Shown here: in pieces, positions 54,393 to 58,280 of the stretch | How the letters are laid out: the number at the start of each line of letters is the position of its first letter | Position numbering within the stretch: the first letter of the stretch is position 1 | Source: Methanoregula sp. | GTDB taxonomy: Archaea > Halobacteriota > Methanomicrobia > Methanomicrobiales > Methanospirillaceae | Direction of reading: 5' to 3' | Length of the DNA stretch: 64,000 nucleotides | NCBI GenBank assembly: GCA_026625165.1 | Contig: CP112999.1 | Span: 1,054,001-1,118,000, forward strand | Notes under the pieces: generated by a model | Seen by the model: the letters and a program-made list of their open reading frames with translations, nothing else | Database searches by the model: none | Told to the model about the DNA's origin: nothing | Translations under genes and position numbers: made by a program

Positions 54393-55544
54393 ATGGCAAA
54401 GAAAGGCGACATGCTCTACGCGTGGACCAATGACGCAGAGATCAAGAAGAAGGCTGAGCTTGGCGGTGCAGTTACCGGGCTCTGGAAACACGCACTTGAA
54501 TCCAAGATGGTCGATGCCGTATTAGCTGTAAAGAAAGGCGTAGATCTCTATGATGCACAAATGGTTCTCATCACGAACCCTGCAGACCTGAAAAACACGG
54601 CCGGGTCGCTCCACTGCGGGACGCTGCTTCTCTCCAAGGTCGTGAAAAAATATCTTGATGGTGCAAAGGGCAAGAAACTCGGTATTACTGTCAAGGGCTG
54701 CGATGTTATGGGGCTGATTGAACTTGCGAAACGCAAACAGGTTAACCTTGATAACATCCTCATGATTGGCGTGAACTGCGGCGGTTCGGTCAGCCCGGTC
54801 TCCGCCCGGAAGATGATCGCTGAAAAATACGGCGTCGACCCGGACAAGGTGCACAAGGAAGAGATCGACAAGGGCCAGTTCATCATCGAGTACGAGGGAG
54901 GGCACAAGGGCATCTCCATTGACGAGCTTGAGGAACAAGGCTTCGGCCGCAGGTCCAACTGCCGCCGGTGCAAGATGAAAGTCCCCCGCCAGGCGGACCT
55001 TGCCTGTGGGAACTGGGGTGTCATCGGTGACAAGGCAGGCAAGGCAACCTTTGTCGAGGTCTGCAGCGACAAGGGTGCAAACCTTGTCAACGGGGCAGTG
55101 AAAGCAGGCGTCCTCGCAACCGAGGTACCGAACCCGAAGGGGCTCGAGATGCGCGGAAAGGTCGAGGGCGCGATGCTCAAGCTGGGAGACAAATGGAGGA
55201 AGAAGGATTTCACAGCACTCGGGGCAAACATGTGGGAGACGATCAACAAAGAGACATCACGGTGCATCAAGTGCTATTCATGTATCGAGAACTGCCCGGT
55301 GTGCTTCACTGCAGCCGATGAGCTGAAAAAGGGCTCCCTTATGGTCAGGCCCGGGGAAGTCCCGCCGAACTCGATGTTCCATTTAAGGAGGTTCGCTCAC
55401 ATATCAGACAGCTGCATCAACTGTGGTCAGTGCGAGGAACTCTGTCCGATGGACATTCCGCTCGCGCTCTTCTCACATGCGATCCGTGTCGAAGGTGATG
55501 CGACCTTTGAACCGAAGCTGGGTAAGGCAGCATATACCAATTAA
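54393..55544 (+). CDS. fdhB: F420-type formate dehydrogenase, beta subunit
   Basis: FdhB (383 residues) reduces coenzyme F420 with electrons from FdhA. Domains are the FrhB/FdhB N- and C-halves (about 10-280), with GLWKHALES, TVKGCDVMGLIELAKR and the Cys group in GRRSNCRRCKMKVPRQADL and ACGNWG, and then two 4Fe-4S motifs: CIKCYSCIENCPVC (about 290-303) and CINCGQCEELCPMDIP (about 337-352). The ATG lies one base after the fdhA stop, with GGAGG 10 bases upstream. Codon bias is like that of fdhA. Confidence 0.96.
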   Translation: MAKKGDMLYAWTNDAEIKKKAELGGAVTGLWKHALESKMVDAVLAVKKGVDLYDAQMVLITNPADLKNTAGSLHCGTLLLSKVVKKYLDGAKGKKLGITVKGCDVMGLIELAKRKQVNLDNILMIGVNCGGSVSPVSARKMIAEKYGVDPDKVHKEEIDKGQFIIEYEGGHKGISIDELEEQGFGRRSNCRRCKMKVPRQADLACGNWGVIGDKAGKATFVEVCSDKGANLVNGAVKAGVLATEVPNPKGLEMRGKVEGAMLKLGDKWRKKDFTALGANMWETINKETSRCIKCYSCIENCPVCFTAADELKKGSLMVRPGEVPPNSMFHLRRFAHISDSCINCGQCEELCPMDIPLALFSHAIRVEGDATFEPKLGKAAYTN

Positions 55545-55953
55545 TTTTTTACTCTCTGTACAAGCAGATGGATCCCAGAATATACAATCAGACAAAGGCA
55601 CGACTGGAGGGTATCTACACGAACATTGCGTTCCCTGAAGAATGGTAGGAATCAGATTTCCCCCCCGGTTCGGCTAATTGGGGGTACAGGATGGGGCGGG
55701 GAATCATCTCTGGAGTAGTTTTACACCGTGTCAAGGTGAGTGTCAGGGCATTATTCGCCTCTAGTCCTGATCCTCATTCCCTGCCTTATGACGCAACGCA
55801 TGAACACCCTTTTAAGAACTGTTCTATCCTGTTTTTGACATTCATGAAAAATCATTGAAAATGTCTTATGCTCTCATAACCTTGTTACGTGATACTTGGA
55901 TGTGGTAGTATTGTCCCTGATGTGAGGTACAATCCATCGTGTGTTCACTCCTC
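55545..55953. other. Non-coding stretch after fdhB
   Basis: The first bases hold the fdhB end and a T-rich stretch (ATTTTTTAC) suitable for termination. A 26-codon frame at 55568-55648 (MDPRIYNQTKARLEGIY and on to FPEEW) looks protein-like but has no ribosome site. A CCCCC-N13-GGGGG inverted repeat lies near 55661-55684. Nothing else is supported before the hairpin array. Confidence 0.45.
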
Positions 55954-56053
55954 TTTCACCCGATGAATAAAAGGGTAAGGGGTCATTCCAGTCCCCATTT
56001 TTTCTTGGGTGTTCGGTAGAATCAGCTCGATTATGACGCTCTTGGGGGAATTA

Positions 56054-56331
56054 ATCCTCGCTGGAAAGCGAGGATCGATTGAAGAAACCATATCAATGGT
56101 TTCGATTTTTTTGCCGTTCCCGCAGGGATGGGCAAACTGAAGAAGATATCCGTCAGGGCATCTTCGATATGCGACTGCAAGGATGCACTGGAAGATGTCC
56201 ATCAGGGCATCTTCGATTTACATTCCCCCGCCGCTATGGCAAACCCGGAAATATTCTGTCGAATATTTCCTGGCTATCCTGTCCTGTCTTTTGGATACGA
56301 CAGACACCCCCCATGATGCGATAGTAGGATA
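56054..56331. ncRNA. Candidate structured RNA: array of seven hairpins
   Basis: Seven hairpins follow one another: A 56054-56075 (9-bp stem, GGAA loop), B 56084-56103 (8 bp, ATCA, then T-run), C 56110-56136 (6 + 4 bp around an internal loop), D 56142-56165 (6 bp, mismatch, 3 bp, GTCA), E 56191-56214 (10 bp, ATCA), F 56247-56270 (10 bp, TGTC) and G 56284-56303 (5 bp), the last inside an outer 6-bp stem 56275-56280/56326-56331. D and E are copies of one 27-base element 49 bases apart. No gene covers this stretch and both flanking genes end towards it, so it would need its own promoter; on the minus strand ATTTAAGTA at about 56339-56347 is a possible TATA. Strand, ends and function are unknown. 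Confidence 0.5.
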
Positions 56332-56474
56332 CGAGGTTTACTTAAATCTGTAGAATTATCATTGTAATCTTCATCACTTTTTTCTTTACAATTTCAGGAA
56401 TGGTATTTTAACACAAAATTCGTAGTTGATTTAGTAAAATATTTGGGGCTAAAATAGTACTTTACCCGTAATTT

Positions 56475-58280
56475 TTATGTCCTCTTAAACATCGCATCCA
56501 GTTGTTCACGCGTAAACCTGACCATTGTTGGTCTCCCGTGAGGGCAGGAGAAGGGGTTATGTGCAAGCCGGAGCTGCTGGAGTAGGCGGCGGCACTGTTC
56601 GGGCGTGCAGGCAGTACCGGCCTTTATCGCGCTGCGGCAGGCGATGATACGCGTAATGCGCTCACGGCTGCTGACAGACCGGGAGGTATCTTCCCGGCTG
56701 AGGTCATCCACAATCTCATTGACCAGATTAGAGTGTTCGAGCGCCCCCAGCACCACCGGTACTGCCCGTACCAGGAACGTATCTTTCCCGAAGTCCTCAA
56801 TTTCAAACCCTTCTTCTGTAAGCGATGGCAGCAGTTCCCGCAGGACGGCAGAGTCCCGTGCGGAACGGTGAAGGAGGACCGGGGCGATAAGTTCCTGTGA
56901 CTGCCGGGCCGACTCCCTCTTTGCGCTCACCATCTCATACATGATCCGTTCGTGGGCAGCATGCTGGTCGACAAGGATCAGGTCCCCGGACCGTGTAGCG
57001 GCGAGGATATAAATCCCCCCGATCTGACCTATGACATCCATATCGGGGACGATGTTTGCATCCGGAAGGATTCCCGTCGGAAGTTCTGACTGGCGGAGCT
57101 GGCGATCCGTGGTGATGATACCAGCATGGGTAGGTTCCAGTGCCGGTTCGCTGACACCGTACGCACGACCCGGTTCAACGTCGTAGGACGCATGAGCATC
57201 CCCATGCCCTGTCTGTACCGTGGGGAACGGGTTATCAGGTGCCTGTGCAGCAGGAATAAGGTCAGATCTGAGCAGTGCACCCGAAATTGCCTGACGGACT
57301 GCGATGCATATCTCGCGTTCCGGACCCAGCCGCACCTGTTTTTTTGCCGGGTGGACATTCACATCCACAAGGGCAGGATCGATTACAAGGAAGAGAAATA
57401 CAACCGGAAACCGTTCCTTTGAAAGGAGTGTCCCGTACCCTTCAAGAATTGCTGAATTTATCGGAGATGATGAGACATAACGCCCGTTGATTGAGACGAT
57501 GATACGCTTTAAGTTTTTCCGGAAGAGGGAAGGGCGGGAGATATACCCGTTGATCAACACCACCGGGTTTTCATGTTCAACCGGAATCAGATATGGAACT
57601 ATGTCACTGCCAAAGAGGCGTGCGATAGCGTCAAGGAGCCTGGATGATTGTTCTGTAGTTATGATTTCCTTTCCGTTATGGGTCAGGAACACCGAAATTT
57701 CAGGATGAGCCAGCGCGAGCCCTTCAATGATACCGGTAATATGGGCCAGCTCTGTACCAAGGGTCTTTAAGAATTTTTTTCTTGCAGGAGTGTTAAAAAA
57801 AAGGTCCTGAACAAGGATATTTGTGCCTTCCGGGGTGCCTATCTCTCCGTGTTCCCTGATTTCCCCGGCTTCAACAACCACTTTTGTGCCTGAGATTGCC
57901 GGACTCTTGTGTGGTTTTGTGCAAAGGGTTACCCGGGAAACTGCAGCGATGCTTGCCAGTGCTTCGCCACGGAATCCAAGGGTCCTGATACCATCAAGAT
58001 CTTCAATTGTGGCAATTTTGCTGGTTGCATGAGGAGTAAATGCAAGTACAGCATCATCAGGTGACATACCAATCCCGTTATCAATCACTTGGATTGTGGT
58101 GATCGACCCTTTCGATGATGACAGATCGACCCGGATGGTCCGGGCTCCCGCATCTATTGCATTCTCAAACAACTCCTTGACAACAGAGGCAGGGCGTTCG
58201 ACTACCTCGCCGGCAGCGATCTGATTAACTGTAGCAGGATCCAGGATATGGATAGTCCTGTTACCGGCATCCGTATTCAT
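56475..58280 (-). CDS. mutL: DNA mismatch repair protein MutL (endonuclease type)
   Basis: MutL (601 residues) has the GHKL ATPase motifs IAAGEVVERPASVVKELFEN, DNGIGM, TLGFRGEALASI and the C-terminal endonuclease motif VDQHAAHERIMYE (DQHA-x2-E-x4-E), together with ACRSAIKAG and CPHGRP. The endonuclease motif means it nicks DNA by itself, as in mismatch repair systems without MutH. Its start and the mutS stop share a base, so the pair is translationally coupled. MutSL is rare in archaea outside some methanogens and haloarchaea and is taken as transferred from bacteria. Confidence 0.96.
   Translation of the reverse strand: MNTDAGNRTIHILDPATVNQIAAGEVVERPASVVKELFENAIDAGARTIRVDLSSSKGSITTIQVIDNGIGMSPDDAVLAFTPHATSKIATIEDLDGIRTLGFRGEALASIAAVSRVTLCTKPHKSPAISGTKVVVEAGEIREHGEIGTPEGTNILVQDLFFNTPARKKFLKTLGTELAHITGIIEGLALAHPEISVFLTHNGKEIITTEQSSRLLDAIARLFGSDIVPYLIPVEHENPVVLINGYISRPSLFRKNLKRIIVSINGRYVSSSPINSAILEGYGTLLSKERFPVVFLFLVIDPALVDVNVHPAKKQVRLGPEREICIAVRQAISGALLRSDLIPAAQAPDNPFPTVQTGHGDAHASYDVEPGRAYGVSEPALEPTHAGIITTDRQLRQSELPTGILPDANIVPDMDVIGQIGGIYILAATRSGDLILVDQHAAHERIMYEMVSAKRESARQSQELIAPVLLHRSARDSAVLRELLPSLTEEGFEIEDFGKDTFLVRAVPVVLGALEHSNLVNEIVDDLSREDTSRSVSSRERITRIIACRSAIKAGTACTPEQCRRLLQQLRLAHNPFSCPHGRPTMVRFTREQLDAMFKRT

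Follow-up and report, generated by a model that had tools for sequence, protein, structure and literature searches.

Hairpins between fdhB and mutL in Methanoregula are probably the interior of an old copy of a modular MITE

A hairpin block between convergent genes

What explains a dense run of hairpins where no gene is apparent? In the window (the whole stretch of 64,000 nucleotides analysed here), fdhB ends at 55544 and mutL ends at 56475 on the opposite strand, and seven hairpins lie in between. The first-pass annotation took them for a candidate undescribed structured RNA. All seven are present, at the positions it gave or a few bases away, and with the loops it listed (GGAA, ATCA, GTCA, ATCA, and TGTC). 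Hairpins D and E, described there as related copies, are 93% identical over 27 nt at a spacing of 49 nt, and the A.C mismatch of D is G-C in E.

The density was said to exceed chance, and folding bears this out. Against dinucleotide shuffles (200 per strand), the RNA fold of 56040-56335 is -117.7 on the plus strand (shuffles -85.0 +/- 5.5, z -5.9) and -119 on the minus strand (shuffles -83.4 +/- 5.6, z -6.4); 0/200 shuffles match it on either strand. The whole 495-bp element folded as DNA has a z of -4.6. The statement that no gene explains the hairpins also holds, as none of the three overlapping ORFs examined has a Pfam match. A search with Rfam covariance models, proposed as a check, matched no family in the element (at the gathering threshold or E<=1) or in related copies (E<=0.5).

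The feature is larger than first described. It runs from 55973 to 56467, its ends (GGGTAAGG... and ...CTTTACCC) are 495 bp apart, and the hairpins are its interior. We consider it very likely that the seven hairpins, which are real, belong to one old gene-less transposon copy and do not form a stand-alone RNA gene. Its parts are as follows.

55973..56467, plus strand: whole element, probable MITE in an IS1595-type frame ('type II'), 495 bp
55973..55996, plus strand: left terminal inverted repeat GGGTAAGGGGTCATTCCAGTCCCC, degenerate; resembles IS1595-type insertion sequence ends in G001:C102
56035..56048, plus strand: core 5' part GACGCTCTTGGGGG; fits the 53-nt core consensus (alignments A1/A2)
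56054..56075, plus strand: hairpin A, core loop 1; also in G000:852198, 862673, and 1299609
56084..56103, plus strand: hairpin B, loop ATCA
56110..56136, plus strand: hairpin C, GTTTGCC-type module
56142..56165, plus strand: hairpin D, loop GTCA
56191..56214, plus strand: hairpin E, loop ATCA, duplicate of D
56225..56241, plus strand: core middle, CCCCC, the small hairpin GCC-GCTAT-GGC, and A; core consensus
56244..56273, plus strand: hairpin F, loop TGTC, second insertion position; related F/G pair in G005:C60
56284..56303, plus strand: hairpin G
56307..56324, plus strand: core 3' part CCCCCCATGATGCGATAG; core consensus
56445..56467, minus strand: right terminal inverted repeat, reverse complement GGGTAAAGTACTATTTTAGCCCC, degenerate

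The hairpin modules are lodged in loops of the core. The stretch from GGGGG (56044-56048) to the first CCCCC (56225-56229) encloses hairpins A-E, and F and G are enclosed by the small GCC/GGC hairpin on one side and the second C-run (56307-56312) on the other. The single GGGGG is able to pair with either CCCCC run, and both pairings occur among folds of the window copy. The left part (55974-56043) has 89-90% identity to G006:C230 and G005:C9, and the right part 85-87% identity to G000:852198 and G006:C56.

Upstream of the element, a rubrerythrin-like gene has left a 3' remnant at 55592-55646, recognised from its LEDIYTNMAFPEAW-type ending; intact versions of the gene are present in G007, G010, G022, and others. 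The next 130 bp are conserved (73-76%) in just two further genomes of the genus, lying behind the intact gene in G007 and behind fdhB plus a remnant in G004, and include a conserved stem, GTCAGGAC...GTCCTGAC. We regard 55592-55780 as a second, separate candidate for a conserved non-coding RNA or 3' region.

Related copies and their transposon frames

Searched at the DNA level, the element's own 2.17-Mb genome (G000) and congeners contain further copies. Related elements occupy about 20 places in G000 and dozens in congeners, range from 93 to 495 bp, and contain no transposase gene; with a shorter query the matches numbered 20 in G000 and 23 in G006. A pattern derived from the element and run over a named genome collection matched ten stretches, all in one Lac Pavin Methanoregula MAG.

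Most related elements in G000 and congeners carry what we call type I ends, and the better-preserved copies start and end with GGCTCTGTAGAAAT / ATTTCTACAGAGCC. Type I ends also bound a 1009-bp insertion sequence that has seven nearly identical copies in G000. Each copy keeps a 304-aa transposase reading frame open, identical throughout except for one residue close to the end of a single copy, and perfect 8-bp target duplications flank five of the seven. The G004 homologue of this transposase contains a DDE_Tnp_1 domain and belongs to the IS5 family (NCBIfam NF033579, 204 bits, cut-off 140). The non-autonomous type I elements form a size series: 93-94 bp, 142-156 bp with the bare GC-rich core, and 205-462 bp with hairpin modules. 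Many are flanked by 8-bp target duplications (for example, TTGGTTTG at G000:1241416 and GAACTAAG in G001:C33).

The degenerate inverted repeats of the window copy resemble the ends of an IS1595-type insertion sequence, GGGTAAGGTACCATTCC. These type II ends also flank an element of 852 bp in G001:C102, in which a fragment of an IS1595-type transposase (ISXO2-like, PF12762) is encoded. A type I identity for the window copy was rejected, as no GGCTCTGTAGAAAT end occurs nearby within 3 mismatches and the flanks match IS1595-type ends.

Like MITEs, these elements share their ends with autonomous insertion sequences (type I with the IS5 family, type II with IS1595) and are short, multicopy, and free of a transposase gene. 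Counted against this reading, the window copy has degenerate ends and no target duplication, and no empty site at fdhB-mutL could be demonstrated because the neighbour synteny is not conserved. We regard it as highly probable that a modular MITE with a foldable core, an archaeal BOX-like mosaic repeat moved in trans, left this old copy, which looks immobile. Transposases of the full-length insertion sequences (IS5- and IS1595-type) would act on the ends and move the elements; we infer movement in trans from the shared ends and the 8-bp target duplications.

Type II elements that have the core and no hairpin arrays occur at G000:1359264 and 160774 and in G001:C28, C109, and C120. Some copies are chimeric. 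G000:852198 combines type I on the left with type II on the right, and in G001:C44 and G001:C28:1319 the arrangement is reversed, with type II on the left and type I on the right, so frames have swapped the core block. In G157 the core is carried by a third frame (GGYGATTCMTCAWTTG..., 228-265 bp, with several 8-bp duplications), for which no transposase was found. The core is therefore present in at least three unrelated transposon frames. Recombination between copies, as the chimeras show, has moved the same core into different frames. In about half of the core copies tested, neither known end type turned up nearby, a further point against the MITE reading.

A conserved core in the Methanomicrobiales

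The core is GC-rich and 53 nt long, with the consensus GACGYTC-YTGGGGG-CTTCG-CCCCC-GCCRCTGNGGC-A-N-CCCCC-...TGCGATA (in short form, GACGYTC-YTGGGGG...CCCCCGCCRCTGNGGCANCCCCC...TGCGATA). Of 150 Methanomicrobiales genomes scanned with a covariance model, 37 have the core, and these represent 14 of the 35 genera. Strong matches fall in three families and single, weak ones in two others; three genomes have at least 38 copies. The window copy escapes the model, since its core is split up by the inserted modules.

Among 134 aligned matches, 97.7% of stem cells pair. Covariation in the core stems is modest (5 cells) because the stems hardly vary. Bases outside the stems are also nearly invariant (GACG.TC and the GA of TGCGATA). 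Core conservation across genera and frames is stronger than a purely passive passenger would need, which also counts against the MITE reading. One alternative, which we hold to be rather improbable, is a Methanomicrobiales-wide structured module with a function for the host or the element, such as a two-way transcript end, an insulator, or a protein-binding site, spread by repeated frame swaps, for which the hairpin arrays growing in its loops would be tunable extensions.

Cores also occur in other arrangements. At G015:C46:52888-54016, six tandem cores with a spacing of about 215 bp form a satellite-like array. In G019 (e.g. L306 1382-1569), cores occur in BIME-like inverted pairs about 80-110 bp apart.

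Growth of the hairpin array

The modules vary by tandem duplication. G000:1299609 has four tandem copies of a 49-bp E unit, and in G005:C34 a 57-bp C-D unit is duplicated. Copies have the E unit 0, 1, or 4 times and the C-D pair 0, 1, or 2 times, the variable tandem stem-forming modules of a BOX-like element. In G006:C50 an unrelated hairpin, CAGTCATGCC-ATCG-GGCATGACTG, takes the place of C.

Pairing is kept while the modules diverge. Among 28 distinct D/E hairpins, 95% of cells are paired (36-51% in slid registers). The covariation that the first-pass annotation proposed to look for is seen in the D-stem, where 14 cells are changed on both sides against 4.7 in shuffles, and 0/500 shuffles reach 14. 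Independent compensatory events are few, because ten of the 14 both-side changes fall at one pair (G-C, A-U, U-A).

Under the MITE reading, hairpin modules have accumulated within the two loops of the core in Methanoregula. They arise by tandem duplication of 49- or 57-bp units, as the duplicated E and C-D units show, and then diverge with their stems still paired. The stems probably stay paired either because imperfect palindromes undergo template-directed repair when DNA is replicated or repaired, or because the fold is under selection; the data fit both.

Enterobacterial REP/BIME elements are short GC-rich palindromic units that lie between genes, often as inverted pairs, and those with RAYT have an associated Y1 transposase and a 5' GTAG-type tetranucleotide. 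The elements here are similar in having short GC-rich palindromic units between genes, in inverted pairs in G019. They differ in that terminal inverted repeats and 8-bp duplications tie most type I copies to DDE transposases. Two tandem E-like units occur outside the recognised frames at G000:1210395-1210498, just upstream of an aIF5A-like gene. Such free-standing units (G000 1210395-1210498 and G004:C23:4083), together with the BIME-like inverted core pairs of G019, would fit REP-like hairpins that are independently mobile through a single-strand (Y1) transposase and inserted into the MITE. We find this highly improbable, since the modules multiply as exact tandem copies that share their linkers, for which ordinary slippage suffices.

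Strand and gene context

In the structured RNA reading, the block would be transcribed and would act as a non-coding RNA, either in trans or as a device in a 3' UTR. Strong folding and compensatory changes speak for it. Three terminator-like sites on the plus strand (0.7 expected) and a slight excess of G.T over A.C mismatches also favour an RNA. However, both strands fold equally, copies have no preferred orientation to genes, no Rfam family matches, and the unrelated hairpin of G006:C50 occupies one module position. Over 99 distinct hairpins, mismatches are 14 G.T, 6 A.C, and 59 other, so non-wobble mismatches exceed wobbles; the difference of 14 to 6 is not significant and does not point clearly to selection acting on a particular RNA strand. 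We judge a structured RNA very unlikely as the explanation. The structure beyond chance, the covariation among copies, and the lack of an Rfam family and of a gene agree with the first-pass annotation. Its dedicated RNA gene is not supported, as the region belongs to a mobile repeat that is dispersed in the genome, has terminal inverted repeats, and has relatives flanked by target duplications; both strands fold equally, the mismatches leave the strand unclear, and orientation to genes is absent. A functional RNA is possible but unsupported.

For gene context we used 77 core copies, nearly all from other genera, with genes from a simple longest-ORF caller. Of these, 33 are between convergent genes, 10 between divergent genes, and 18 and 14 in the two co-directional orders. 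Core copies avoid promoter regions and have no orientation preference. That the elements trail co-directional genes was ruled out (18 vs 14).

In G000, 12 of the first 13 copies are on the plus strand. We do not take this bias as meaningful, because an inversion between insertion sequence copies at 911 and 1208 kb would turn the three copies inside. G000:911197-1208605, which includes the whole window, has inverted insertion sequence copies at its ends, and the halves of their target duplications are swapped (GAAAAATC/GTTTTTTT and GATTTTTC/AAAAAAAC). This is the mark of a ~297 kb inversion by recombination between the copies, or of misassembly.

Enrichment between convergent genes also bears on whether the core serves the host as a protein-binding or insulator module (e.g. 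a two-way transcript end), selected and hitch-hiking on several transposons. The near-invariant bases outside the stems (GACG.TC, GA of TGCGATA), the occurrence in at least three frames, and the tandem array at 215-bp spacing in G015:C46 are consistent with such a module. But purging of harmful promoter insertions would also lead to convergent enrichment, and copies differ among species and sites. We see such a putative module as a rather improbable explanation. Under the MITE reading, copies persist mainly between convergent genes, where the counts are highest and harm is least, and the fold may serve there in a mild role as a two-way transcript end or stabiliser.

Comparison with known repeats and significance

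BOX elements of Streptococcus pneumoniae and S. suis are modular and MITE-like, with fixed ends and variable tandem stem-forming internal modules, and in S. suis different end modules can flank the same boxB modules (PMC3049150). The elements here also have fixed ends and variable stem-forming modules, and their core in different frames parallels boxB between different ends. Unlike BOX, they have an archaeal host, frames tied to two identified insertion sequence families, and modules inside loops of a GC-rich core. The likeness means 'works like', not membership, and rests on organisation rather than sequence homology. BrickBuilt of Porphyromonas gingivalis is a MITE that encloses a tandem-repeat array or minisatellite of 23-bp repeats (PMC4596501). 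It shares internal tandem repeats with the element here, but has no separate hairpin modules and no conserved core common to several frames. A 2024 review of MITEs in prokaryotes lists several archaea as hosts and reports Methanobacterium thermoautotrophicum as without them (PMC10969869). Our search of the open-licence literature found no description of this repeat family.

The locus is a caution that excess folding and covariation alone do not prove an RNA gene. It is also a natural case in which to separate selection on folding from template-directed palindrome repair. The repeat appears to be an undescribed family of methanogenic archaea, with at least 38 copies in some genomes, in which one structured core is swapped among unrelated frames and grows by hairpin duplication.
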